Assembly: GCA_937893635.1 (NCBI GenBank)
Contig: CALBGF010000207.1
Span: 1 to 19,239 of the forward strand
DNA length: 19,239 bases
Reading direction: 5' to 3'
Source of the DNA: an uncultured Mollicutes bacterium
GTDB taxonomy: Bacteria; Bacillota_I; Bacilli_A; RFN20; CAG-826
The notes below the pieces were generated by a model. That model saw only the letters and a program-made list of their open reading frames with translations, had not been told where the DNA came from and ran no database searches. The stretch's first letter is position 1. Each line of letters starts with the position of its first letter. A program made the translations under genes and the position numbers. Below, one piece after another: positions 3,702 through 17,358 of this stretch.

Positions 3702-5648
3702 ATGCTTGGTGCTATTATTGGTTTAATAATAGGAACGCTAACTTCAAAAAACATTTTCTTTATTTTATTTTTAGTATTTCCATTTATTCGCTGGTATAAA
3801 GATTTTCATAAATTATTGATTGTTTTACTATTTTTTACTTATGGACTTCTTACTTGCTTGTTAGCAAAAGTAAATACTTTTTCTAGCAATACATATTTAT
3901 TAGTGATAGAAGCAAAAGAAAATTATGTTATTGCTAGGAACTTATTTTCTAAGTGTTATATATCGGCAAAAGGAAATGATTTAGAAATCGGTGATATTAT
4001 AAAAGTGGATGGCATAGTTAAAGAATTAGATATGCACGCTATTGAATCACATTTTGATTTTAAAAATTATTTAAATAATAATGGAATATATTATGAGTTT
4101 TCAGTTGGAAAAATGGAAAAGATTTTATCTTTATTTTTTCCAATAAAGAAGATAGCAATATTTTTAACTAATAAATATGATGAATTAACTAGTGAATTAG
4201 CAAAATCATTAGTGTTTGGATATAGTTCAAAAACCATTAATAATTTATTTTCTAATAATTCATTTCGCTATATGTTAACATTAAATTCTTCCATTCTTGC
4301 TTTTGAAATGTATTTAATAGTAAATTTATTTAAAAAAACAAAACCAAAAGCAATCAAAATAGTAATATGCATTATTGGATCATTGTTATTTATATTGTTG
4401 TTTTTTAAAAAGTCATTATTAAAATTTTTGTTATTTATGATAGCTAAAAAGTTAAGAAAAGAAAAACAATTATCACTAATTAAATTATCGGAATTGATTT
4501 TGCTTATTTACTTGATTATATCGCCATTTAATTTTTATTCTTATGGAATATGGTATTCATTAATAATTATTAATTATTTTAATTTATGTCTAAAAAAAGT
4601 AAAAAATAAGGCAATTTATATAGCAATATTATTGATAATTTTAAACTATGTTTTTAATGGATATATTCCGATTACTTTATCAATAATGCGAATCGTTTTG
4701 CAGCCTATAATTTTAATATATGAACTTATTGTAATGCTATTAATGTTTATACCAATTCATATTAATTTAGCAACATATAGCAAGGGCATTATTTGGCTAT
4801 TAAATATTGCTAAAAATTTTGATTTTTCTTTTTATCCAATTGATTCTTTGGTATTAAAAATAGTAACAATAGCCATGTATATAATGTTTTTATATTTTAT
4901 TAATATTAAATATAATAAATTTAGCAAAAGTATCTTTTTAATTATGTCCTTAACTTTGACAGTATTTTCTTTACCGATTAATAATTATATTTATGATTAT
5001 TTATATGCAATCGATGTTGGTCAAGGTGATTGTTCTTTAATAGTACATAAAAATAAGACAATATTAATTGATACCGGTGGTCTTACTTATGAAGATATTG
5101 CCGCTACAACATTAATACCATTTTTTAGAAAGGTACATGTGAATAAAATAGATTATGTAATATGTTCACATAGCGACCATGATCATATTGGAGCTTTAGA
5201 TTCTTTAAAACAACTAATGAAAGTAAAAAATATAATTAATGAAAGAAGTCAATTTCCATTAAATGTTAATGGCTTAATATTTGAAAATTTAAATAATTAC
5301 GATTATAAAAATGAAAATGACTCATCTCTTGTTAATAAATTTACTTTTATTGGTTTGACTTTTTTATATATGGGAGATGCATCAACTACTATTGAAAAGA
5401 AAATAGTTAATGATTACGATTTAAAAGATGTTGATATTATTAAACTTGGACATCATGGGTCAAGCACAAGTACAAGTGAAGAACTTTTAGATGCTACAAC
5501 ACCAAAAGAGGTAATAATATCATTGGGTCATAATAACTATTATGGATTTCCGAATAAAGTTGTTTTAGAGCGACTTAATAAAAGAAATATAAAAATTCGA
5601 AGAAGTGATATTGAAGGAACAATTATATACAAAAAACTTATTTTTTAA
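3702..5648 (+). CDS. comEC: ComEC/Rec2-type DNA uptake channel, divergent core
   Basis: ComEC forms the channel through which single-stranded DNA enters the cytoplasm. This 648-residue protein has N-terminal membrane segments (1-62) and a DUF4131-like soluble part (about 68-150, with GDIIKVDGIVKE and HFDFKNYLNNNGIYY). A hydrophobic competence core follows (about 165-430), then a metallo-beta-lactamase-like domain from about 434. That last domain has VGQGD, a metal-binding HSDHDH near 488, MGDAS and GHHGS near 582, so its nuclease-type site looks intact. The core is odd: the HLLAISGLH-type motif that marks the family reads roughly RYMLTLNSSILAF here. It is translated right after comEA. The family assignment is secure; transport function is less certain because of the divergent core. 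Confidence 0.9.
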   Translation: MLGAIIGLIIGTLTSKNIFFILFLVFPFIRWYKDFHKLLIVLLFFTYGLLTCLLAKVNTFSSNTYLLVIEAKENYVIARNLFSKCYISAKGNDLEIGDIIKVDGIVKELDMHAIESHFDFKNYLNNNGIYYEFSVGKMEKILSLFFPIKKIAIFLTNKYDELTSELAKSLVFGYSSKTINNLFSNNSFRYMLTLNSSILAFEMYLIVNLFKKTKPKAIKIVICIIGSLLFILLFFKKSLLKFLLFMIAKKLRKEKQLSLIKLSELILLIYLIISPFNFYSYGIWYSLIIINYFNLCLKKVKNKAIYIAILLIILNYVFNGYIPITLSIMRIVLQPIILIYELIVMLLMFIPIHINLATYSKGIIWLLNIAKNFDFSFYPIDSLVLKIVTIAMYIMFLYFINIKYNKFSKSIFLIMSLTLTVFSLPINNYIYDYLYAIDVGQGDCSLIVHKNKTILIDTGGLTYEDIAATTLIPFFRKVHVNKIDYVICSHSDHDHIGALDSLKQLMKVKNIINERSQFPLNVNGLIFENLNNYDYKNENDSSLVNKFTFIGLTFLYMGDASTTIEKKIVNDYDLKDVDIIKLGHHGSSTSTSEELLDATTPKEVIISLGHNNYYGFPNKVVLERLNKRNIKIRRSDIEGTIIYKKLIF

Positions 5649-5650
5649 TG

Positions 5651-5656
5651 TATAAT
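5651..5656 (+). promoter_or_regulatory. Possible -10 box upstream of holA
   Basis: TATAAT lies just after the comEC stop and 24 bases before the holA ATG, preceded directly by TG. No good -35 is present. It may give holA its own transcript in addition to read-through from comEA-comEC. Confidence 0.35.
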
Positions 5657-5680
5657 AATTTGTAAGCGAGGTGTTCATCA

Positions 5681-6652
5681 ATGGTTATTATTTTATTTGG
5701 TGTACAAGATTTAATGCTTAAATCAACCTTAAAGAAGGTTACTAATGAACAAATTAAAGAAATTAATGAGTTCAATTTTGTTACGTACAACGCTTTAGAG
5801 TGTGAAATATTAGATGTAATGTATGAAGCAACTTTAATGCCTTTAGGTGAAGATAAAAGAGTAATTGTTGTTGAAAATGCTAGCTTTTTAAGTGCTGAAA
5901 AAGTAAAAAAGAATACCTTAAGTAAAGAACAAGAAAAAGCAATAATTGATTATATTAAAATACCTAATGATGCGACTGAATTGATTTTTATAGTTCACAA
6001 TGAAAAAATTGATGATAAAAGTCCAATTGTTAAACTTGTAAAAGAAAAAGGCCGTATTATTGAAGCAATGAATCCAAGTGATAAAGATTGGATTAAGTAT
6101 GCCGAAAAATTATTTGCAAATTACGGAATTACTGCTTCATTTAACGTTATTGATGAATTCACTAAAAGAACAAATAAAGACGCCATGCTTATGAACAACG
6201 AGGTTAAAAAACTAGCGCTTTATAGTAATAGTATTACAATGTCTGATTTAGATTTGTTAGTAGCACGTCCATTAGAAGATAAAATATTAAACTTATGCAC
6301 ATTAATTGTTACTAATAAAAAGAAAGAAGCAATAAGTTTATATCGTGATTTGTTAGTCAAAAATGAAGAACCAGTAGCGATGATTTCTTTAATTGCCACA
6401 CAATTAAGATTGTTTGTTGATGTTTTTACATTAAATGATGCTGGCTTATCTCAAGGAGAAATTGCAAATGAATTAAATATACATCCATATCGTATTAAAC
6501 TTGCTTTGGATAATCGTCGTTACATTCGTTTAAGTTCATTAAAGAATGAAATTGAGAATCTTTATCAATTAGATTACGATATTAAAAGTGGTAAAGTTGA
6601 TCGCTTTTATGGACTTGAAATGTTTATTTTGAATTTTAATAAAATAGATTAA
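5681..6652 (+). CDS. holA: DNA polymerase III delta subunit
   Basis: The delta subunit is the clamp-loader component that opens the sliding clamp. The 323-residue length and position between comEC and rpsT match YqeN/HolA of Bacillus. The N-terminal part has the family pattern ILFGVQDLMLKSTLKK followed by an acidic region and PLGEDKRVIVVENASF, the degenerate AAA+ fold without a Walker A lysine motif. The middle includes KLFANYGITASFNVIDEF and LMNNEVKKLALY. The C-terminal collar domain (about 205-323) includes LRLFVDVFTL and HPYRIKLALDN. Shine-Dalgarno GCGAGGTG precedes the ATG. The downstream terminator is shared with the convergent rpsT. Confidence 0.93.
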   Translation: MVIILFGVQDLMLKSTLKKVTNEQIKEINEFNFVTYNALECEILDVMYEATLMPLGEDKRVIVVENASFLSAEKVKKNTLSKEQEKAIIDYIKIPNDATELIFIVHNEKIDDKSPIVKLVKEKGRIIEAMNPSDKDWIKYAEKLFANYGITASFNVIDEFTKRTNKDAMLMNNEVKKLALYSNSITMSDLDLLVARPLEDKILNLCTLIVTNKKKEAISLYRDLLVKNEEPVAMISLIATQLRLFVDVFTLNDAGLSQGEIANELNIHPYRIKLALDNRRYIRLSSLKNEIENLYQLDYDIKSGKVDRFYGLEMFILNFNKID

Positions 6653-6666
6653 TTAAACTGAGTAAT

Positions 6667-6700
6667 AAAAAAGCCCCGCAATTTGCAGGGCGATTTTTAT
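6667..6700. terminator. Bidirectional terminator between holA and rpsT
   Basis: The arms GCCCCGCA (6673-6680) and TGCAGGGC (6684-6691) form a stem with one internal mismatch. It is flanked by six A on the left and ATTTTTATTTTT on the right. It therefore has a T tract on either strand and can end both convergent genes. Confidence 0.85.
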
Positions 6701-6712
6701 TTTTAATACAAC

Positions 6713-6979
6713 TTAAGCTTTTAAACTATTGACTAAGGCTTGAAGATGGCTCTTTTGTCTAGCAGCGGTATTTTTACTTTGAACACCTTTTGATACTGAT
6801 TTATCAATTTTAGCAACAGCTACTTTAAGTGCAGCTTCAGCTTTTTCTAAATCTTTTGCTTCAACAGCTAAACGAACTTTTTTCATTTCTGTTTTTACTG
6901 CAGTTTTAACACTTACATTGTTGGAGCGACCCTTTTCGTTAGTTCTAATTCTTTTTACTTGTGATTTAATATTTGCCAT
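6713..6979 (-). CDS. rpsT: 30S ribosomal protein S20
   Basis: S20 binds 16S rRNA in the body of the small subunit. The 88-residue protein begins MANIKSQVKRIRTNEKGR and is rich in Lys/Arg and Ala, with three long helices; it ends HLQALVNSLKA. Length and sequence fit the family. The start at 6979 is chosen because it follows ACGAGGTGAAATT on the reverse strand. A longer in-frame start at 7018 would add a non-homologous extension. Its reversed orientation between holA and gpr is the same as in Bacillus subtilis. Confidence 0.96.
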   Translation of the reverse strand: MANIKSQVKRIRTNEKGRSNNVSVKTAVKTEMKKVRLAVEAKDLEKAEAALKVAVAKIDKSVSKGVQSKNTAARQKSHLQALVNSLKA

Positions 6980-7099
6980 AATTTCACCTCGTTTCAAAAC
7001 ACGAAAAAAGTTTACCATAATATGAGATTATATTCAATAGTTTTGACCATTTTTTCATTAAATAAGTGAAAATGATAAATAATAATTTTAGGTGATAAA

Positions 7100-7969
7100 A
7101 TGCGTATAACTGATTTATATTTGAATGATTTTGCTGATGAACAAATAGGCAAAAAAATTGGTAAAAACTATGTAATTAAAAATATTAAAGAAGAGTATTC
7201 TAAAATAACAATGATTGAAATTAAAAATAGCAATAATGAATTTCATAAAGAAAAAGGAAATTATATTACAATTGCGTGCCTTTATGATTATGATAATGAA
7301 AAAACAATTGCTAAATATTTATTAAAAATATTAAAGAAGAATAATTTTAATAAAAACTCGCATGTTCTAATTGTAGGATTAGGAAATGATTCATATTTAT
7401 CCGATGCATTAGGACCAAAAGTAATAAAAAAAGTACAAGTAACATCTCATTTATCTTTTAATAAATTGAATTTAGTGAAAGTATCATGCTTTGTTCCTGG
7501 TGTTATGGCAGTTACGGGATTAGAGTCTTCCGAAATGGTTAAAAGTTTAGTTAAAGAATTTGCTATTGATCTTGTAATTGTTGTTGATTCATTAGCAACA
7601 AGAGATATCACTAGACTATATAAAACTTATCAAATTACTGATACAGGAATAAGTCCAGGAAGTGGTATCAATAATAATCGTTTGTCATTAAATAAGAAGA
7701 CACTAAAAGTACCTGTTATTGCTATTGGAGTTGCAACAGTTGTCGACACTATTTCTTTAATAATAAATACCTTAGAACAAGTGAATAAAGATTATATTCA
7801 TAAACTAAATATAAACAAACTTTATAATACGCTTTATCGTAAAGATACTAATTTTATTCTAACAAGCAAAGAAATTGATAGTCTTATTGATATAATTGCC
7901 AGCAATATTAGCAGTGCAATTAACTATGCTCTTAATCCTAAACTTTCAATAAACGACAAAGTCCGCTAA
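7100..7969 (+). CDS. gpr: Germination protease GPR, short form
   Basis: GPR degrades small acid-soluble spore proteins during germination. Conserved blocks are VGLGND (92-97), SDALGP (101-106), PGVMAVTGLES (133-143), VVDSLATRD (161-169), TDTGISPGSG (180-189) and PVIAIGVATVVD (205-216). Asp102 and Asp163 correspond, by my alignment, to the two Asp residues regarded as catalytic. At 289 residues it is shorter than the usual 330-370. The protein begins MRITDLYLNDFADE, so it starts almost at the RTDL motif where the zymogen is normally processed; the propeptide seems nearly absent. RBS TAGGTGAT precedes the ATG. A small membrane-protein gene follows. Presence of gpr implies SASP-containing spores or a recent spore-forming ancestor. 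Confidence 0.93.
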   Translation: MRITDLYLNDFADEQIGKKIGKNYVIKNIKEEYSKITMIEIKNSNNEFHKEKGNYITIACLYDYDNEKTIAKYLLKILKKNNFNKNSHVLIVGLGNDSYLSDALGPKVIKKVQVTSHLSFNKLNLVKVSCFVPGVMAVTGLESSEMVKSLVKEFAIDLVIVVDSLATRDITRLYKTYQITDTGISPGSGINNNRLSLNKKTLKVPVIAIGVATVVDTISLIINTLEQVNKDYIHKLNINKLYNTLYRKDTNFILTSKEIDSLIDIIASNISSAINYALNPKLSINDKVR

Positions 7970-8000
7970 AAAGAAGTGATATTTTATTGGTGGTGATAAT

Positions 8001-8312
8001 ATGAAAAACTTTTTTAAATCTGTTTTAATATTCTTATTAGGATTTGTAGTAATAAGTTCAATAGCTATAAAAAATCCAACAAATGGTAGTAATGAAAACA
8101 TACAACTAAATTCTACAATTGCTTCATTTGAAGAAGATATCAAAAATGGTAGTGTGGTAGAAGATGGAGTATTAGATGATACAAAAATTGAAGAAAATGA
8201 AACAAATAACGCTATGGCAAATATATTCCAAAAAATAGGAAATGGAGTTACTAAAGGTGTCGGAGCGGTTTTAAGATTTTTCTCGTCTTTGATTTCAAAA
8301 TTTATCGGTTAA
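8001..8312 (+). CDS. Small membrane-anchored protein in the yqxA position
   Basis: This 103-residue protein has one N-terminal transmembrane or signal-anchor segment (about 5-24), an acidic linker (about 30-70) and an amphipathic C-terminus (about 71-103, with FQKIGNGVTKGVGAVLRFF). I do not recognise a family with certainty. Place and architecture, directly after gpr in the gpr-spoIIP-yqxA-lepA neighbourhood, resemble Bacillus YqxA (DUF3679), a small protein of unknown function. It has none of the SpoIIP amidase region. The RBS GGTGGTGAT is strong, so it is very likely translated. A sporulation-linked role is inference from context. Confidence 0.6.
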   Translation: MKNFFKSVLIFLLGFVVISSIAIKNPTNGSNENIQLNSTIASFEEDIKNGSVVEDGVLDDTKIEENETNNAMANIFQKIGNGVTKGVGAVLRFFSSLISKFIG

Positions 8313-8317
8313 ATTAT

Positions 8318-8345
8318 TTGCTTATATCATAAAAAATGCTAAACT
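8318..8345 (+). promoter_or_regulatory. Possible promoter of fmt
   Basis: TTGCTT (8318-8323) and TAAACT (8340-8345) are separated by 16 bases, and a TGC extension precedes the -10. It lies directly before the fmt ribosome binding site. Confidence 0.4.
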
Positions 8346-8361
8346 ACTTGTGGTGATTTGA

Positions 8362-9300
8362 ATGAATAAAAAAGACTATCGCATTGTATTTATGGGTACG
8401 CCTGACATTGCTAAAGATGTATTAGAAGCATTAATAAATGATGGCTATAACATTGTTGGTGTTGTGGCTCAACCAGATAAACCAGTTGGAAGAAAGAAAA
8501 TTTTACAAGAAGTACCTACAAAAGTAATGGCCAAAATTCATAATATTCCAGTTTTTCAACCTGTAAAAATTAAATTAGACTATGAATTTATGAAAGAATT
8601 AAAACCAGATGTTATTATTACACTTGCTTATGGTCAAATTGTGCCACAAGGCTTATTAGATATTCCTACAATTGGAGCAATTAATTTGCATGGATCCTTA
8701 CTTCCTAAATATCGTGGTGCGGCACCTATGCAATATGCTTTAATCAATGGTGATAAAGTAACTGGTATGACTTTAATGCAAATGATTGATAAAATGGATG
8801 CTGGTGTAATGTATATGAAAAAAGAAGTTGAGATATCAAATGATGATACTTTGTCAACATTAACTAAAAAGATGACTACTGCTGCGATTGATTTAATTTT
8901 AGAAGCATTACCATTATATATTGAAAATAAATTACCAGGTGAAGAACAAGATGAAAGCTTAGTAAGTTTTTGTCCAACTATAAAAAAAGAACAAGAGCAT
9001 TTAGATTTGACTTTGTCAGCTCAAACTATCGTTAATTGGGTAAGAGCGTTAAATGATCATCCAGGAGCGTATTTACTTATGGATGATACAAAACTAAAAA
9101 TTTGGAAAGCGAAAGTAGTTAATAACAATGTAAAAGCTCAAGTTGGAGAAATTGTCGAAGCAAGTAAAAAAGGATTAATTATGCAAGCAATAGATGGACA
9201 AATTGCTTTACTTGAACTTCAAAAAGAAGGAAAAAACAAAATGGACTATTTGTCTTTCTTAAATGGCAATCAAGGATTAGTGGGAAAAATACTTAAATAA
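8362..9300 (+). CDS. fmt: Methionyl-tRNA formyltransferase
   Basis: Fmt transfers a formyl group from 10-formyltetrahydrofolate to Met-tRNA for translation initiation. The 312-residue protein has the N-terminal Rossmann-like formyltransferase domain: VFMGTPDIAK, the tRNA-contacting loop QPDKPVGRKK, LAYGQIVPQG and INLHGSLLPKYRGAAP. Asn108, His110 and Asp146 (MDAG) are the catalytic residues. The C-terminal OB-like domain runs from about 207 (WVRALNDHPGAYL). Length is normal. GTGGTGATTTG precedes the ATG. In Bacillus fmt is elsewhere (with def and priA), so its place here is a rearrangement relative to that genome. Confidence 0.97.
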   Translation: MNKKDYRIVFMGTPDIAKDVLEALINDGYNIVGVVAQPDKPVGRKKILQEVPTKVMAKIHNIPVFQPVKIKLDYEFMKELKPDVIITLAYGQIVPQGLLDIPTIGAINLHGSLLPKYRGAAPMQYALINGDKVTGMTLMQMIDKMDAGVMYMKKEVEISNDDTLSTLTKKMTTAAIDLILEALPLYIENKLPGEEQDESLVSFCPTIKKEQEHLDLTLSAQTIVNWVRALNDHPGAYLLMDDTKLKIWKAKVVNNNVKAQVGEIVEASKKGLIMQAIDGQIALLELQKEGKNKMDYLSFLNGNQGLVGKILK

Positions 9301-9521: not shown

Positions 9522-11864
9522 GTGGAAAAGAAATTAGATTTATCAGTACATCAATTAGTGGACTTTTTGCTTCGAAAAGGTGACATTGATAACCGTATTT
9601 ATAATAAAACTTCTATGAGTGAAGGAACACGTTTACATGCTTCTTATCAACGTCGTCAAAGTAATGAATATATGGCGGAATATTTTTTAACGCATACTTT
9701 TGAAGTTGATGACTTTTCAGTTACTTTAAGTGGACGTGCGGATGGAATTATTGAACGCCCGTTTTTTGCTATTATTGATGAAATTAAAACAAGTGTTATT
9801 GATAATGAAGAATTTTTTAATTCACAAAAAGAATGGCATTTAGGGCAAGCAAAAGTATATGCACTTATTTACGCGTTGGATAATGATTATAAAAATATGG
9901 GTGTACGTTTAACATACATCAATCAATTAAACGATAAACAACTCATCAAAGAATTTAAATACAGTGTAGAAGAACTAAATGAATATGTTATTTCTTTGAT
10001 TAAGGAATATTTAGATTTTTATCAAACAATATTTCGTTTAAAAGAAGAACGAAATATAACGGCAAAGACATTAGAATTCCCGTTTCCTAACTTTCGTAAA
10101 GGTCAAAGAGAATTAGCTAAATACACTTATTCAACATTAAATAAAGGCGAAGTTTTATTTGTTGAGGCTCCAACTGGAATTGGAAAAACGATGTCGACCT
10201 TATATCCCGCTATTAAAACATTTGCCAATGAAGAAAATGACAAAATATTTTATTTAACCGCGAAAAATAGCGGAATTGAGTCATCGTTTTCGGCTGCTAA
10301 ATTATTGTTAAATAAAGGGCTAAAAGCGAAAATTATTCAAATAACAGCCAAAGAAAAAATATGTGCATGTGTGGGAAGAAACTGTAATCCTGATGATTGC
10401 CCATATGCTAAAGGATATTATGAAAAGCTTCGTAAAGCATTAACTGATGCTTTAAATAGTGATACTCCTTATTCCAAAAATGAAGTATTAAATATTGCTT
10501 TAGACCATGCTTTATGTCCATTTGAATTTCAACTAGATTTATCACTATTTTGTGATGTGGTAATATGTGATTTTAATTATTTATTTGATCCACTTGTATA
10601 TTTAAGAAGATATTTTGATAATCCAACAAAAAATATTGTTGGTTTAATTGATGAAGCCCATAATTTGGTTGAGCGTGGAAGAAGTATGTACACTACTGAA
10701 CTAAATTATGAAAACTTTAAAAAAGCTAAAAAGGCATTAGGTAAATGTGAACATAAAAAATTAAAATCAAGCGTAAATAAATTACAAAAAATATTTAAAG
10801 AATATGAATCACTTTCTAATGATGGCTATAATTTAAATGAAGACTTAGATATTGAATTAGTACATGCTTTAAGTAATTTTCAAAAAGCGGCAACGGATTA
10901 TATGAAAAGAGTGCCGCTTGAAACAAAACAAGAGTTTACTGATTTCTTTTTTGAAGCCATAAGATTTATCAAAATAAGTGATTTCTTTAATGAAACCTTC
11001 CGCATGTTAACTGTTAAAGACGGTAAACAATTAGTAATTACAATCATCAATTTGGATCCATCAAAGCTTTTAAAAGATTCACTTGATTTATTGCGTGGAG
11101 CAGTGTTATTTTCCGCGACTCTATCGCCATTAGATTATTATGTAAGAATGCTAGGCGGAAATGATGAATCGCCAGTTTTAAAAATACCTTCACCATTTGA
11201 ACGTGATAATTTGCTCCTTATGATTGCCCCATCAGTGGCTACAACATATAAAAAGCGTAATGAAACTATTGATGAAGTAGCAAGTTATATTAAAACTATG
11301 ATTGATGCAAAAATGGGTAATTATTTTGTGTTTTTCCCATCTTATAAATATCTAAATAATGTTTTAAAGTGTTTTGATAATGTTGATTATGATATTCATG
11401 TTCAAACTAGTGAAATGAGTGAAATAGAAAAAGCACAATTTTTAGATAATTTTAAACCAAATCCTACCTCAACTCATGTCGCATTTGTAGTCTTAGGCGG
11501 TATATTTTCAGAAGGAATTGACTTATTAAATGATCGTTTAATTGGCGCGGTTATTGTAGGAGTTGGACTTCCTCAAATTTCATTTGAACGTGATTTAATT
11601 AAAGATTATTTTAATAATGAAGAAGAAAGTGGTTTTGAATTTGCCTATGTAAAGCCAGGTATGAACCGTGTTATTCAAGCCGTTGGTAGAGTTATTCGCT
11701 CGGAAAATGATGTTGGGGCTGTTTTATTAATAGATAATCGTTATTTGGAGTCAAGATATCGTGATTTATTTAAGAGTGAATGGGATAATTATAAAGTAGT
11801 ATTAAATATAGGGGATGTTCAAGACTCATTAAAAAGATTTTATGAAAGAAAAAATTACAAATAG
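9522..11864 (+). CDS. PD-(D/E)XK nuclease fused to a DinG/XPD-type helicase
   Basis: A 780-residue fusion starting at GTG, nine bases after AAGGAG. Residues about 1-170 form a RecB/Cas4-like nuclease: His39 (GTRLHASYQ), Asp74 (GRAD), Asp86-Glu87-x-Lys89 (IDEIKT) and Gln109 (GQAKVYAL). From about 190 comes an iron-sulphur superfamily 2 helicase: Walker A APTGIGKT (216-223), a cysteine cluster at 281, 283, 288, 293 and 332, and the DEAH box at 377-380 (LIDEAHNL). Motif VI is in QAVGRVIRS near 725. All catalytic residues are present. Such COG1199 proteins unwind 5'-3' and act on damaged or structured DNA; the nuclease suggests processing of flaps or repair intermediates. The exact role is unknown. 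It lies between fmt and the polyamine-like genes without clear functional link to them. Confidence 0.88.
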   Translation: MEKKLDLSVHQLVDFLLRKGDIDNRIYNKTSMSEGTRLHASYQRRQSNEYMAEYFLTHTFEVDDFSVTLSGRADGIIERPFFAIIDEIKTSVIDNEEFFNSQKEWHLGQAKVYALIYALDNDYKNMGVRLTYINQLNDKQLIKEFKYSVEELNEYVISLIKEYLDFYQTIFRLKEERNITAKTLEFPFPNFRKGQRELAKYTYSTLNKGEVLFVEAPTGIGKTMSTLYPAIKTFANEENDKIFYLTAKNSGIESSFSAAKLLLNKGLKAKIIQITAKEKICACVGRNCNPDDCPYAKGYYEKLRKALTDALNSDTPYSKNEVLNIALDHALCPFEFQLDLSLFCDVVICDFNYLFDPLVYLRRYFDNPTKNIVGLIDEAHNLVERGRSMYTTELNYENFKKAKKALGKCEHKKLKSSVNKLQKIFKEYESLSNDGYNLNEDLDIELVHALSNFQKAATDYMKRVPLETKQEFTDFFFEAIRFIKISDFFNETFRMLTVKDGKQLVITIINLDPSKLLKDSLDLLRGAVLFSATLSPLDYYVRMLGGNDESPVLKIPSPFERDNLLLMIAPSVATTYKKRNETIDEVASYIKTMIDAKMGNYFVFFPSYKYLNNVLKCFDNVDYDIHVQTSEMSEIEKAQFLDNFKPNPTSTHVAFVVLGGIFSEGIDLLNDRLIGAVIVGVGLPQISFERDLIKDYFNNEEESGFEFAYVKPGMNRVIQAVGRVIRSENDVGAVLLIDNRYLESRYRDLFKSEWDNYKVVLNIGDVQDSLKRFYERKNYK

Positions 11865-11880
11865 TAATTGTAATTACTAT
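11861..11880. repeat. Perfect 8-bp inverted repeat before the agmatinase gene
   Basis: ATAGTAAT (11861-11868) and ATTACTAT (11873-11880) are separated by TGTA. It overlaps the helicase stop codon and lies nine bases before a TATAAA (11889-11894) that may be a -10. No T tract follows, so it is not a normal terminator; an operator or mRNA hairpin is possible. Confidence 0.4.
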
Positions 11881-11915
11881 TAATAATGTATAAAATTGAT
11901 TGCGGTGATGAAATT

Positions 11916-12809
11916 ATGAAAGATTATTTCCGAGATTTATTAGTGGATAATATTGAAGAAGCTAAAGTTATTCTTACAGGTGTACCATTTGATAAAAATG
12001 CTTCAATTGGAAAAGGTGCATCAAAAGCTCCACAAGTTATGCGTGAATTATCAGCATCGGAACCTGCTTTAAGCATGGATGGAGATGACATAAGTGCATG
12101 TAAAATCTATGATACTGGTGATGTTGCTTATGAAGGAGAAGATGATATTACATATTTTGCTAAAGTAAGTAAACATTTAGATGAAACACTTAATACAAAT
12201 AAATTTAATTTAGTTGTTGGTGGTGATCATTCTATTGCTATAGCTAGTGAATTGTCATTTTTAAATTACGCTAAGAAACATAATAAGAAACCATTAATTA
12301 TACATATCGATGCTCATCCTGATATTTGTGATGTATATGAAGGTAGTAAATATTCTCATGCTTGCCCAATCAGAAGAGCAATTGATAATGGATATGCTAC
12401 TGAAGATATTATTCTTATTGGTATTAGAGGATTTGAAAAGCAAGAAGTAGAATATTTTGCTATTCATCCAGAAATAAAGATGTTTAATGCTAATTTTATT
12501 CATAACAATGGTATTGAACCGATATTTAAATATTTAAAAGAAACAATTAGTGATGATTATATGGTATATTTATCTTATGATATCGACGCAAATGATCCAA
12601 GTTTTGCTCCAGGAACTGGAACACCAGAAGCATTTGGCGTTAATAGTTTAGATATTATGAAAATACTTTGTTTCATTGTTAGAAACTTTAATGTGCCAAT
12701 GATGGATATTGTGGAAATCGCTCCACCACTTGATGTAAATGATATTACCACTTGGTTAGGTATTAAAGATTTATATGAAGTGTTTAAACAATTATTACTA
12801 AAGGAGTAA
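11916..12809 (+). CDS. speB: Agmatinase / ureohydrolase family protein
   Basis: Ureohydrolases split agmatine or arginine to urea plus putrescine or ornithine using a binuclear manganese site. All metal ligands are visible: GGDHS (His105), DAHPD (Asp132, His134, Asp136) and SYDIDANDP (Asp222, Asp224). His148 lies in the substrate loop and PGTGTPEAFG (232-241) is the family signature. I start it at ATG 11916 (297 residues), after GCGGTGATGAAATT; an in-frame ATG at 11886 has no ribosome binding site. Substrate is uncertain: agmatine is favoured because the next gene is an AdoMetDC-fold protein and because the signatures are closer to SpeB than to arginase, but formiminoglutamase or arginase activity is not excluded. 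Its stop lies eight bases before the next ATG, whose RBS overlaps the end of this gene. Confidence 0.85.
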   Translation: MKDYFRDLLVDNIEEAKVILTGVPFDKNASIGKGASKAPQVMRELSASEPALSMDGDDISACKIYDTGDVAYEGEDDITYFAKVSKHLDETLNTNKFNLVVGGDHSIAIASELSFLNYAKKHNKKPLIIHIDAHPDICDVYEGSKYSHACPIRRAIDNGYATEDIILIGIRGFEKQEVEYFAIHPEIKMFNANFIHNNGIEPIFKYLKETISDDYMVYLSYDIDANDPSFAPGTGTPEAFGVNSLDIMKILCFIVRNFNVPMMDIVEIAPPLDVNDITTWLGIKDLYEVFKQLLLKE

Positions 12810-12816
12810 CTGATTT

Positions 12817-13623
12817 ATGAAGAAGCATGTAATGTTTGATTTTTATGGTGCAAATCAACATCAATTAGATGATATAAAACACGTTAATGATTTATTAACC
12901 AAATTATGTTTTAATCTTGATTTACAACCAATTTGTCCACCACAACTAATTCCATATTATTATGGAAAGGTTAAAGAAGATATTGGTGTTTCGGCATTTA
13001 TATTATTAGAAGGCGGACACGTTACTATCCATACTTTCCCATTAAGAGAATGCTATTTCGTTGATATATTTGCAGAGACTGATTTTGACGATAATGCTGC
13101 CTATCAATTTTTCTTAAAAGAATTACCTTTTGACGAAAAGAATTCTATTAAAAATGTGAAAGATCGTTCTATTCGTAAGTTTGAAATGTTACCTTATGAA
13201 TCGGATGTTGATTTTGGTCCACACGTAATGACAGAAATTAAAGCACATACTACTCCAACAATGGAAGTATTATTCGACTTCTTAGAAAAAATAGTTTATG
13301 AAATTAATATGGATCCTATTACTCGTCCATTTGTTTTAAAATCAAGAATTAATAACCCAAAATATTTAAGTGCAATTATAGTTATTGCTCAATCACATAT
13401 TGCAATTCATTATAATTACAAAACTAAATTTATGTACGCAGATATCTTCTCTTGCGCACCATTTGATTACACTAATATTGATAAAATCTACGCTCCATTA
13501 GGAGAAGTAGTATCTAATGAATTAACCGCTCGCGGAAGCAAACATATTTACAAAGTAAAATCTAAAGTATCAAAAACTGATTTACGCGCGAATATGCGTT
13601 GGCAAAAGGCGATAAAGAAATAG
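12817..13623 (+). CDS. Tandem AdoMet-decarboxylase-fold protein, atypical
   Basis: SpeD-type enzymes self-cleave at Glu-Ser to make a pyruvoyl group that decarboxylates S-adenosylmethionine (or, in some relatives, ornithine or arginine). This 268-residue protein contains two SpeD-like halves. N-half: HVMFDFYG (4-11), then LLEGGHVTIHTFP (63-75) and VDIF (82-85), aligning with LLAESHISIHTWP but with Gly66-Gly67 replacing Glu-Ser and without the Cys after DIF. C-half: IAQSHIAIH (190-198) and ADIFSC (208-213), keeping Ser193, His194, His198 and Cys213 but with Gln192 for Glu. If self-processed, the pyruvoyl would come from the C-half. RBS AAAGGAG overlaps the end of the agmatinase gene. Together they suggest arginine to agmatine to putrescine, but substrate is inference; an inactive or AdoMet-using protein is possible. 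Confidence 0.75.
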   Translation: MKKHVMFDFYGANQHQLDDIKHVNDLLTKLCFNLDLQPICPPQLIPYYYGKVKEDIGVSAFILLEGGHVTIHTFPLRECYFVDIFAETDFDDNAAYQFFLKELPFDEKNSIKNVKDRSIRKFEMLPYESDVDFGPHVMTEIKAHTTPTMEVLFDFLEKIVYEINMDPITRPFVLKSRINNPKYLSAIIVIAQSHIAIHYNYKTKFMYADIFSCAPFDYTNIDKIYAPLGEVVSNELTARGSKHIYKVKSKVSKTDLRANMRWQKAIKK

Positions 13624-13624
13624 T

Positions 13625-14167
13625 ATGAATATTACAGTTTATTTAGGCGCTAATGAGGGTAATGACCATTCTTTAAAGAAAGCAGTCGCGGATTTTGGAA
13701 CTTGGATTGGTAAAACTAATAATACATTAGTCTATGGCGGTTCCCGTATCGGCTTAATGGGTGTTATTGCAGAAAACGCTCTGAAAAGTAACGCTAAAGT
13801 TATTGGCGTTGAACCAAGATTCTTTGTAGAAAAAGAATTACAAAATGATGATTTAAGTGAATTAATTGTTACTGAAAATATGTCAGAACGTAAAGCAAAA
13901 ATGATTGAATTAGGTGATGCTTTTGTGGCTTTTCCTGGCGGAACAGGCACATTAGAAGAAATATCTGAAATTATGTCGATGGTTTCTTTAAATCACACTA
14001 ATGCACCATGTATTATTTTTAATCTTCATGGTTATTATGATGGACTAAAAACTTTACTTGATAAAATGATTGAAATGGATTTATCTTCAATAGAAAGACA
14101 AAAAGGTATTTATTTTGTCTCTACATTAGAAGAAGTAGAAAAGATTTTACTTGCCAAAACATTTTGA
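13625..14167 (+). CDS. LOG-family nucleotide phosphoribohydrolase-like protein
   Basis: The LOG family (TIGR00730), often misnamed lysine decarboxylase, hydrolyses nucleoside 5'-monophosphates, including cytokinin ribotides, to base and ribose phosphate. The 180-residue protein has VYGGSRIGLMG (36-46), the catalytic-site Arg89-Lys90 (MSERKAKM) and PGGTGTLEE (104-112), all conserved; length is normal. Its ATG comes one base after the stop of the AdoMetDC-like gene and lacks a strong Shine-Dalgarno sequence, so it is probably translationally coupled. Link to the two polyamine-like genes is by position only. A purine-salvage role, for instance recycling adenine nucleotides, is possible but not shown. 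Confidence 0.9.
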   Translation: MNITVYLGANEGNDHSLKKAVADFGTWIGKTNNTLVYGGSRIGLMGVIAENALKSNAKVIGVEPRFFVEKELQNDDLSELIVTENMSERKAKMIELGDAFVAFPGGTGTLEEISEIMSMVSLNHTNAPCIIFNLHGYYDGLKTLLDKMIEMDLSSIERQKGIYFVSTLEEVEKILLAKTF

Positions 14168-14218
14168 TTAAAACAATAAATCCTAATTCAATATTTGCTT
14201 AATTAAGTAGTATTAATT

Positions 14219-14230
14219 ACAAAATTTTGT
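14219..14230. promoter_or_regulatory. Palindrome in the -35 region of the PLD nuclease promoter
   Basis: ACAAAATTTTGT is a perfect 12-bp palindrome ending 13 bases before TATAAT (14244-14249), so it covers the -35 position. It could be an operator of a controller protein. AT-rich palindromes also arise by chance. Confidence 0.35.
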
Positions 14231-14243
14231 ATCCAAATTTTAC

Positions 14244-14249
14244 TATAAT
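14244..14249 (+). promoter_or_regulatory. -10 box of the PLD nuclease cassette
   Basis: Perfect TATAAT in the 151-base gap after the LOG gene, 69 bases before the ATG at 14319. There is no recognisable -35; the palindrome at 14219-14230 occupies that place. Confidence 0.45.
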
Positions 14250-14318
14250 GCTTGTAGGTTACTTTAACGAAGATGATTAATAAGTTCTGTATAAAAAATT
14301 ATGGAGGAGTGAATTGAT

Positions 14319-15119
14319 ATGCTTAATATAATTAAAACGCCATCAAATGATGAATTTTTTAGTCTTGTAAAAAATTCTGAAAAAAATATATATTTATGTG
14401 CACCATTTATAAAAAAGGAAATCGTCGATAAAATATTAGATGCTAGAAAAGATGGAATAACAATGGTAGTTATTACATCTTCAAATATATCTAATTTTTT
14501 ATGTGGATCTCTTGATATATCGGCAATAAAAGAATTAATTAATCAAGGTGTTACAGTTAGAAATTATCAAAATTTGCACGCAAAAATATACATTTTCGAT
14601 AGAGAAAAGGCATTAGTTACATCAGCAAATTTAACAAATAATGCTTTATACAACAATTATGAATATGGAGTTTTGATTGAAAACGATGAAATTATCAATC
14701 AAATTTATGAAGATTATCAAGAAATGCTTGATAATGAAGATTGTGGTACTTTTAATATTAGTTTGTTAAATAATCTTGAAAAAATAAAACGACAAATTAA
14801 AAAAAGACCAATAGTAAATGTTGATTTTGACAATGACACAATCATTATTGAAAAGAAAAATATTTTAACTAAAAATATGTCTTCTTGGCAAAAAGATATT
14901 TTTGAAATAGTTAATGAATTTGATGAAAATATATTTCTTATAGATGATATTTATCGTCGCGAGAATGATTTAAAACTAAAGCATCCCAATAATAATTTTA
15001 TAGAAGCAAAAATTAGACAAATCTTGCAACAATTAAGAGATATGGGATTTATTAAGTTTGTGAGTAAGGGAAAATATAAGAAGTTATGGATTGATAAATC
15101 GAAAGTGAGTGAGAATTAA
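14319..15119 (+). CDS. PLD-type nuclease with DpnI/DRP-like winged helix, candidate restriction enzyme
   Basis: This 266-residue protein has an N-terminal phospholipase D-superfamily domain (1-140) with one HxKx4D motif, His87-Lys89-Asp94 (NLHAKIYIFD), followed by TSANLTNNAL and NNYEYG. Such single-HKD nucleases act as dimers, as in BfiI and NgoFVII. Residues about 190-257 match the winged helix of Dam-replacing proteins and the DpnI C-terminus: HPNNNFIEAKIRQILQQLRD (222-241) then GFIKFVSKGKYKKLW. In those enzymes this domain reads DNA, including methylated GATC in DpnI. No methyltransferase is nearby, so a methyl-directed or otherwise self-sparing restriction enzyme is my best guess. RBS GGAGGAGTG lies before the ATG. 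Other PLD nucleases, such as repair or relaxase-like ones, are alternatives. The domain pair is clear; the biological role is inferred. Confidence 0.78.
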   Translation: MLNIIKTPSNDEFFSLVKNSEKNIYLCAPFIKKEIVDKILDARKDGITMVVITSSNISNFLCGSLDISAIKELINQGVTVRNYQNLHAKIYIFDREKALVTSANLTNNALYNNYEYGVLIENDEIINQIYEDYQEMLDNEDCGTFNISLLNNLEKIKRQIKKRPIVNVDFDNDTIIIEKKNILTKNMSSWQKDIFEIVNEFDENIFLIDDIYRRENDLKLKHPNNNFIEAKIRQILQQLRDMGFIKFVSKGKYKKLWIDKSKVSEN

Positions 15120-15120
15120 A

Positions 15121-15399
15121 ATGAAATATATTGAACAGTTAGAAATTGCAAAAAAAGAAAAATTAAATACTACTAAGCTATTTATTGCTTATGAAATGGA
15201 AGCTTTATTAGGATCTAATAAAAATAAAATTAGCGAAGATAAATATGAAGAACTTTGCTCTATTGTGTACGAACATTATTTGAATATTGACTATTCTTCA
15301 ATTAACGATGTGGTACAAATTGTCTATGACTTATATTTAGATAATAAAAAAATTTCTGAAAGTATTATTCGTGAAAAACTAGAAACTATGTATTTATAA
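15121..15399 (+). CDS. Small helical partner of the PLD nuclease, unknown function
   Basis: A 92-residue, mostly helical, acidic protein that I do not recognise. It starts one base after the nuclease stop; the ATG at 15121 is preferred over the in-frame GTG at 15109, which would overlap the nuclease gene. It has no transmembrane segment and no cysteine motif; the segments LFIAYEMEALLG and VVQIVYDLYLDN look amphipathic. Tight coupling to the nuclease suggests an inhibitor, immunity factor, or DNA-binding or regulatory subunit, but nothing in the sequence decides between these. No terminator is visible after it. Confidence 0.65.
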   Translation: MKYIEQLEIAKKEKLNTTKLFIAYEMEALLGSNKNKISEDKYEELCSIVYEHYLNIDYSSINDVVQIVYDLYLDNKKISESIIREKLETMYL

Positions 15400-15509
15400 T
15401 TTGAATTATAAACCAAATAGATAAATAAAAGGCTTATCAATTATTAGGTGGAGTTCAAATTGAAAAAATACTATCAATCAAAATAATTATTTAATAATTA
15501 AAATTAATT

Positions 15510-15518
15510 TGTTATACT
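15510..15518 (+). promoter_or_regulatory. Extended -10 promoter of lepA
   Basis: TGTTATACT gives a TGn extension and a -10 TATACT (15513-15518), 28 bases before the lepA ATG. The -35 region is a run of A and T without a clear hexamer. Confidence 0.5.
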
Positions 15519-15546
15519 TTATGTCAGTAAGAAAGAGGTGGTATTT

Positions 15547-17358
15547 ATGGCATTTGATCAAAAGAAAATACGTAATTTTTCTATTATTGCACATATTGAT
15601 CATGGTAAATCCACTTTAGCAGATCGAATTTTAGAACTTACTGGTAGTGTGGATAAACGTGAAATGAAAGAGCAACTACTTGATTCGATGGATTTAGAAA
15701 GAGAACGTGGAATTACAATTAAACTTAATGCGGTTACTCTTAATTATGTTGCAGACGATGGAGAAACATATATATTTAATTTAATTGACACTCCGGGACA
15801 CGTCGACTTTACTTATGAAGTATCTCGTTCTTTAGCGGCTTGTGAAGGCGCTTTGTTAGTTGTTGATGCCACGCAAGGAGTAGAAGCTCAAACATTAGCA
15901 AATGTCTATTTAGCAGTTGATAATGATTTAGAAATTATTCCAGTTATTAATAAAATTGATTTACCTTCCGCTCATCCTGAATTTGTTAAAAAAGAAATTG
16001 AACAAAGAATTGGTATTACGTGTGATGATGCGGTTGAAGTATCCGCTAAAACGGGACTTAATGTTGAACAAGTCTTAAAAATGATTGTGAAAGATATTCC
16101 TGCTCCAGTAGGTGATATTAACGCTCCATTAAAGGCTTTGATATTTGATTCAAATTATGATGCATACCGTGGTGTTGTCATTAATATTCGCTTAAAAGAA
16201 GGACAAGTTAAAGTTGGAGATGTTATCCATCTTATGGCGGCTAATAAAGATTATTTAGTTACTGAACTTGGTATTCGTACACCAAAAGAAGAAAAACGTG
16301 ATGTTTTATACGCCGGTGAAGTTGGCTATTTATGCGCCCAAATTAAAGATATTAAAGACGTTCATCCAGGTGAAACAGTAACCTTAAAAAATAATATGGC
16401 ACAAGAACCTTTACCAGGATATCGCCATATTAATCCAATGGTATTCTGTGGTTTATACCCAGTTGATTCTAAAAAATATGGTGATTTAAAAGAAGCTTTA
16501 GAAAAATTATGTTTAAATGATTCATCTTTACAATTTGAACCGGAAACATCCCAAGCTCTAGGATTTGGATTTAGATGCGGATTCTTAGGCTTATTACATA
16601 TGGATGTTGTGCAAGAACGTTTAGAAAGAGAATATAACATTGATTTAATATTAACTGCACCATCGGTTATTTATAAAGTAAAACTTACTAATGGTGATAT
16701 TATCAATCTTGATAACCCTTCAAAATTACCTGATTCCTCATTAGTCAAAGCAATTGAAGAACCTTATGTCAACGCCTCAATAATGACACCAAAAGAATAT
16801 GTTGGTCCAATTATGGAGTTATGCCAAGAAAAAAGAGGAATTTACACCGATTTAGAATATTTTGATGATACGCGTATGATTTTAAAATATGAAATACCAT
16901 TAAGTGAAATTGTTTATAATTTCTTTGATAAACTTAAAAGCTATTCAAAAGGTTATGCTTCATTTGACTATGAATTAAGTGAATATAAAGAATCTAATTT
17001 AGCTAAAATGGATATCTTATTAAATGGACAACCAATTGATGCTTTATCATTAATTGTTTATAAACCATCAGCGTATACTCGCGGAAACTTAATTACAAGA
17101 AAACTTAAAGACGTTATTCCTCGTCAACAATTTGAAGTACCAGTTCAAGCGGCCATAAGCGGAAAAGTTATTGCTCGTACTGATATTAAAGCAATGCGAA
17201 AAGATGTTTTAGCGAAGTGTTACGGCGGAGATATTTCTCGTAAAAGAAAACTTCTTGATAAACAAAAAGAAGGTAAAAAACGTATGAAAAAAATTGGTTC
17301 TGTGGAAGTCCCACAAGAAGCGTTTATGTCTTTACTTTCTATCGATGATGACGAATAA
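15547..17358 (+). CDS. lepA: Elongation factor 4 (LepA) GTPase
   Basis: LepA is a ribosome-binding translational GTPase involved in ribosome biogenesis and translation under stress. The 603-residue length is normal. G-motifs are AHIDHGKST near residue 17, DTPGHVDF near 80 and NKID near 135, with SAKTG further on. The LepA-specific C-terminal domain is complete, including [35 protein letters not shown] and [16 protein letters not shown] near the end. I start at ATG 15547 after AAAGAGGTGG; an in-frame GTG at 15538 lies inside the ribosome binding site. A terminator overlaps the stop codon. Confidence 0.98.

Follow-up and report, generated by a model that had tools for sequence, protein, structure and literature searches.

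A PLD-winged helix nuclease gene and its small adjoining partner gene in an uncultured Mollicutes bacterium: a probable modification-dependent restriction pair

The DNA stretch analysed here (the window, 19,239 nucleotides) contains two adjacent forward-strand genes. Taken as a whole, the pair is best explained, with fair probability, as an N6-methyladenine (m6A)-dependent, type IV-like nuclease of the PLD-winged helix (PLD-wH) class with a small accessory partner. The nuclease gene occupies positions 14319..15119 (+), stop codon included, and encodes 266 amino acids; GGAGG at 14303..14307 (+), read from the sequence, is its probable ribosome-binding site. The partner gene (15121..15399, +) starts 1 bp past the nuclease stop and encodes 92 amino acids from ATG, or 96 from an upstream GTG. 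Both open reading frames are present at the coordinates given in the earlier note, which had regarded the cassette as possibly an undescribed defence module. The pairing with this partner is indeed new within the literature searched, but "undescribed" fails for the nuclease, because a 2024 report already presented PLD-wH endonucleases as probable type IV restriction enzymes that depend on N6-methyladenine (PMC11037411, available part of the text). Judged by its sequence, the window nuclease is a new member of this published class.

Comparison with Pfam divides the nuclease into two domains, both matched above the curated cut-offs: PLDc_2 at residues 16-136 (14364..14726, +; E 1.1e-21) and DpnI_C at residues 189-255 (14883..15083, +; E 3.7e-23). 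The HKD motif (H87-x-K89-x4-D94; 14577..14600, +) is intact, so the protein is a single-HKD PLD nuclease, as had been proposed. The predicted C-terminal winged helix superposes on DpnI at 1.1 Å over 70 residues with 41% identity; together with the profile match, this upholds its assignment to the DpnI/Dam-replacing type. Among solved chains DpnI is by far the nearest by profile, and it is the sole match at E ≤ 1e-6. K231 and R233 pair with K229 and R231 of DpnI in an ungapped alignment; alanine mutants at the DpnI positions were impaired, and DNA binding or DNA protection by the winged helix was weakened (PMC4117772, available part).

Conservation was assessed in an alignment of the query with 112 homologues (240-290 aa) out of 120 listed of 309 in all. 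Among these 113 sequences, drawn from the 120 listed of 309, H87 is kept in 113, K89 in 112 and D94 in 109, all three in 108; K231 and R233 are kept together in 109, and all five residues in 104. Homologues that lack the HKD residues, which would have counted against the proposal of the earlier note, are thus few in this alignment, and the window copy shows no sign of decay in its HKD and reader residues. One relative (L110, 1498-2283), located between AIPR and HSDR_N_2 genes, has lost the HKD motif (N, R, D) and retains an intact winged helix; from its sequence it could be a reader without a nuclease of its own. A protein that bears the annotation of a sigma-70 family factor (L111, 2318-3691, plasmid NZ_CP028262.1) likewise contains a DpnI-type winged helix; its gene adjoins a DEAD/DEAH helicase gene.

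In the proposed mechanism, the 266-residue protein would be a type IV-like restriction enzyme that depends on modification of its target. The winged helix at its C-terminus would dock on duplex DNA with N6-methyladenine in an ApT context (sites of the GATC type, like those of DpnI). Dependence on m6A is likely but inferred. For the published class 27 predicted endonucleases are reported, two of which, Aba4572I and CbaI, were less toxic in Dam- than in Dam+ E. coli (PMC11037411, available part). Since the PLD domain has one HKD motif, two chains would have to pair to build an active site. Cleavage would be metal-free, via a covalent intermediate on His87, and probably outside the methylated site. 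The 92-residue gene would be read from the same message as the nuclease, and its helical accessory product, most likely acting by binding the nuclease or keeping it in check, would be one among several small partners that the class can exchange. Our own reading of the locus is that of an m6A-dependent nuclease whose small controller can be exchanged.

The distribution of the class is patchy. A PLD-wH match at E ≤ 1e-25 occurs in 7 of 279 genomes of one order, one of them with the winged helix only. Alignment matches at E ≤ 1e-30 were obtained in 6/391 genomes of another class and 2/183 of a third sample, figures that include fragments, one other architecture and genomes counted before. In viruses, one protein scan gave none, and alignment gave seven loci, mostly with the winged-helix part only; one viral match has 27% identity over residues 86-266. 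Phages contributed one record (winged-helix part only) and plasmids nine, none covering 80%. The PLD domain is structurally near Nuc and NucT, and a housekeeping or repair nuclease of that type with a DNA-binding tail could be imagined on this ground. The patchiness within the order, the DpnI-type reader and the defence neighbourhoods of the relatives all argue against it, and this explanation is highly improbable.

The five closest relatives examined (L001-L005, 47-59% identity) all sit among defence genes, which supports the earlier proposal of a probable defence role. AbiH is found at L001, GmrSD at L004, and an IIG-like protein with an MkoC-like helicase at L005. At L003 the neighbours are a D12 gene about 5 kb upstream, HNH, PDC-M33A/B/C and PDC-S41. 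At L002 two D12 methyltransferase genes and an AlwI-type REase gene lie directly upstream, in one tight run with the PLD-wH gene (4501-8780), and SIR2/HerA genes lie downstream. The AlwI-type protein of this run also matches the R.BspD6I small subunit, and the L002 PLD-wH protein could accordingly serve a type IIS system as an additional subunit. HNH and AAA_21 genes occur on the opposite strand at L093 and L094. Near five more distant relatives (L006, L007, L011, L013, L014), the nearest genes tested were metabolic or unrelated rather than defence genes.

The earlier statement that no methyltransferase lies nearby agrees with the window, in which no DNA methyltransferase was seen (6 ORFs compared with Pfam, the remaining ORFs by eye). 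It does not extend to the relatives, two of the five close ones (L002, L003) having D12 genes near the PLD-wH gene. Such loci could indicate a conventional or auxiliary restriction-modification nuclease that works beside host methyltransferases and whose winged helix reads either a sequence or some mark different from m6A in GATC. The gene run at L002, the D12 gene upstream at L003, the presence of D12 in 7/17 PLD-wH genomes and the FokI winged helix, which is not methyl-dependent (PMC11037411, available part), are in favour of this explanation. A window in which no methyltransferase was seen, the singular closeness of the winged helix to DpnI and the retention of both DNA-contact residues count against it, and it is considered unlikely.

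The D12 counts also bear on the preferred m6A-dependent reading. If GATC-methylated DNA were the target, hosts would be expected to lack Dam, and the counts go against such a simple Dam-conflict picture. PF02086 (D12) was found in 7/17 PLD-wH genomes (4/7 in the order, 3/10 elsewhere) versus 66/272 other genomes of the order. Exclusion of D12 by PLD-wH is therefore not seen, D12 being no rarer with PLD-wH than without it. A D12 protein exceeds the NCBIfam 'dam' cut-off in 6/17 PLD-wH genomes; in one of the genomes (G285, carrying L010), an uncurated MAG, a full-length DpnII-methylase-like protein (266 bits) is encoded on a different contig. Co-occurrence could result from different site specificity, from regulation (perhaps by the partner) or from contamination. 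GATC sites number 25 in the window versus 49.5 expected, a depletion that says nothing about avoidance because CATG is equally depleted (27 versus 59.3).

The partner belongs to a family (family A) of 18 homologues (E 5.1e-46 to 4.6e-21), all but three of which are 92-93 aa long and 59-95% identical. Conservation at the protein level in these homologues identifies the 92-residue frame as a true gene rather than a frame open by chance. The predicted structure comprises five helices (pLDDT 91.6). No accepted match was obtained in Pfam, NCBIfam, PADLOC or PHROGs, so the protein is without a known family, and no published description of such small partners for PLD-wH enzymes was found in the open-licence literature. 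A weak profile similarity to the N-terminal part of the anti-CRISPR AcrIF14 (E 0.005) was observed. Clear acidity is found in 18 of the 19 family A sequences, the exception, P0133, being balanced.

This acidity, and the position of the small gene 1 bp behind the nuclease, would suit a toxin-antitoxin-like pair, in which an indiscriminate nuclease is held by a 92-residue antitoxin and infection leads to cell death or arrest. The published failure to over-produce PLD-wH proteins in E. coli, even without Dam, fits as well. In the available part of the report no PLD-wH enzyme was purified and the over-expressed protein was not seen, two further members were not expressible in Dam- cells owing to toxicity, and the class is the sole published winged-helix-fusion nuclease class that resisted purification (PMC11037411). 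Relatives, however, carry the nuclease without family A, and 9/17 loci have no small partner. Moreover, the key residues of the DpnI-type reader are invariant, and a toxin that cuts without guidance would have no use for such a reader. A toxin-antitoxin pair is accordingly held to be quite doubtful.

The nuclease and family A are coupled less regularly than the tight spacing in the window suggests. The earlier description as tightly coupled is borne out by that spacing, but not by the order of 279 genomes: family A is absent from all six of its genomes with a full-length PLD-wH protein, and was strongly matched in one genome (G138) and weakly in one more (G102; 26% identity, 253-aa frame). The G138 copy is degraded by an in-frame stop and has no PLD-wH gene within 18 kb, the best PLD-wH match of the genome being E 2.1e-4. 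The small gene could thus be an unrelated passenger, by chance behind the nuclease. Small-protein clusters, which lie on longer and more numerous contigs than nuclease clusters (≥ 69% identity, 99-100% of the query), are suggestive in the same direction. Other observations oppose it. The nuclease cluster P0012 (69% identity) and the partner cluster P0132 (66%) agree in contig count (4) and in the length of the longest contig (14,451 bp), and the pair therefore seems to have been kept once in a diverged copy. The G138 copy stands behind a defence run (L069, 8865-15019: AAA_11 helicase, MazG-like and SLFN-g3 helicase genes, then the degraded family A gene), possibly another home of the family A protein. 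The AAA_11 helicase of this run shares 65% identity with the helicase whose gene immediately precedes the PLD-wH gene at L005. Small partners are also found in the same place behind other PLD-wH genes. A passenger gene is an appreciable possibility, but on the unlikely side.

The place behind the nuclease was compared at 17 loci, the window included, where the gene is uncut, its winged helix can be recognised and the DNA behind it can be read. L110 was retained despite its lost HKD motif. The loci left out were L012 and L013 (gene cut by the contig end), L026 (winged helix only), L104 (the same as L007), L105 (interrupted gene, 97 bp from the contig end), L107 (winged helix not intact), L108 (fragment), L109 (other architecture) and the viral loci L086-L092. 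At 8/17 loci a small gene begins close to the end of the nuclease stop codon, at most 11 bases ahead of it or 1 base beyond it; these are not eight independent events, L011/L014 and L093/L094 being close pairs. Four families occupy the slot: family A in the window (92 aa), PF27350 at L007, L010, L011 and L014 (83-91 aa, precomputed assignment), ASCH at L093 and L094 (115-116 aa) and DpnD-PcfM at L106 (62 aa, E 4.4e-18). BLASTP detected no similarity between the four, L106 included. The overlap is partly a by-product, since conserved C-terminal 'LW' codons create ATG or GTG; the slot genes are judged real because conservation at the protein level extends beyond the overlap. The remaining 9/17 loci have no such small gene; at L004 GmrSD follows 19 bp on, and at L006 an unrelated 193-aa gene. 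The outcome for the small gene among homologues, which the earlier note had left to a survey, is therefore divided: this particular family is missing from all six genomes of the order that encode a full-length PLD-wH protein, and some small gene fills the slot at about half of the loci.

At L106 (1474-2476), the PLD-wH gene is overlapped by the DpnD-PcfM gene behind it. The family is of interest here since the DpnC nuclease and DpnD are described as making up the DpnI system (PMC8515895, available part). A wider reading, less likely than not, makes PLD-wH enzymes two-component systems: the small protein encoded by the overlapping or adjacent gene would be dedicated to controlling the nuclease, as inhibitor, licensing factor or target selector, and at least four families would have been recruited to this slot independently. 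It would explain the toxicity or non-expression of PLD-wH enzymes cloned alone, and the coexistence of some of them with Dam-type methyltransferases in one genome. Should PLD-wH enzymes be controlled by a co-encoded small protein, co-expression would be the missing step for their purification. If the wider reading is true, single-gene m6A-dependent nucleases would become two-gene modules in defence surveys, and a function would be given to DpnD, the old companion of DpnI, the role of which is, to our knowledge, unexplained.

The nuclease and partner genes are the last of a variable block (11865..15537, +) between a DinG/XPD-like helicase gene (9522-11864) and lepA (ATG at 15547). The block contains five genes: arginase family, AdoMet decarboxylase, LOG-like, nuclease and partner. 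The junction was compared in seven related genomes with both flanks seen, of eight examined: about 30 bp separate the match ends in 4/7, and 1.1, 2.0 and 4.3 kb of other genes lie there in 3/7. A hydrolase-like gene (by eye, GxSxG) is common to the three filled junctions. The first three block genes (11886-14167) form a polyamine-type run, and only 17/279 genomes of the order have a match to the LOG-like protein (best 65%). Because the junction varies among relatives, the pair resembles cargo carried at a permissive site. The GC content of the two genes is low (23.7% and 22.6%), which is weak evidence for import because the window gene at 3702-5648 is equally low (22.4%). Promoter-like sites (17 versus 14.4 ± 3.4 in shuffles) and terminators (none) were uninformative.

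Among named systems, DISARM DrmC gave the best PADLOC matches of the PLD half and was rejected: the score is 57.1 bits versus a cut-off of 133 (NCBIfam NF038319), and no DISARM genes were recognised in the window. SauUSI, a 5mC-dependent PLD restriction enzyme, differs by its ATP dependence, helicase and other reader, all absent here. Unlike BfiI, NgoAVII and NgoFVII, the window protein has no B3-type recognition domain, DpnI_C following PLD instead, and no methyltransferase or helicase partner was seen. With the DpnI system of Streptococcus pneumoniae it shares the m6A-reading type of winged helix and the presence of a second small protein. It differs in its N-terminal half, which is PLD by profile and fold, whereas DpnI has a metal-dependent PD-(D/E)XK domain; the window partner, unlike DpnD and the L106 protein, has no DpnD-PcfM (PF14207) match at E ≤ 1. 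The closest likeness of architecture is to Aba4572I and CbaI, in which a PLD domain likewise precedes a DpnI-type winged helix, in a class mostly without an adjoining methyltransferase; 87% of more than 1,000 winged-helix fusions have none within three genes (PMC11037411, available part). The hosts of these two enzymes are Anaerolineaceae and Chloroflexi, whereas the window comes from a Bacilli-type MAG lineage, and the available text of that report discusses no small partner, though hypothetical genes follow both published loci. Compared with its relatives, the window pair is a new variant, in which a helical protein fills the slot that they fill with other small proteins.
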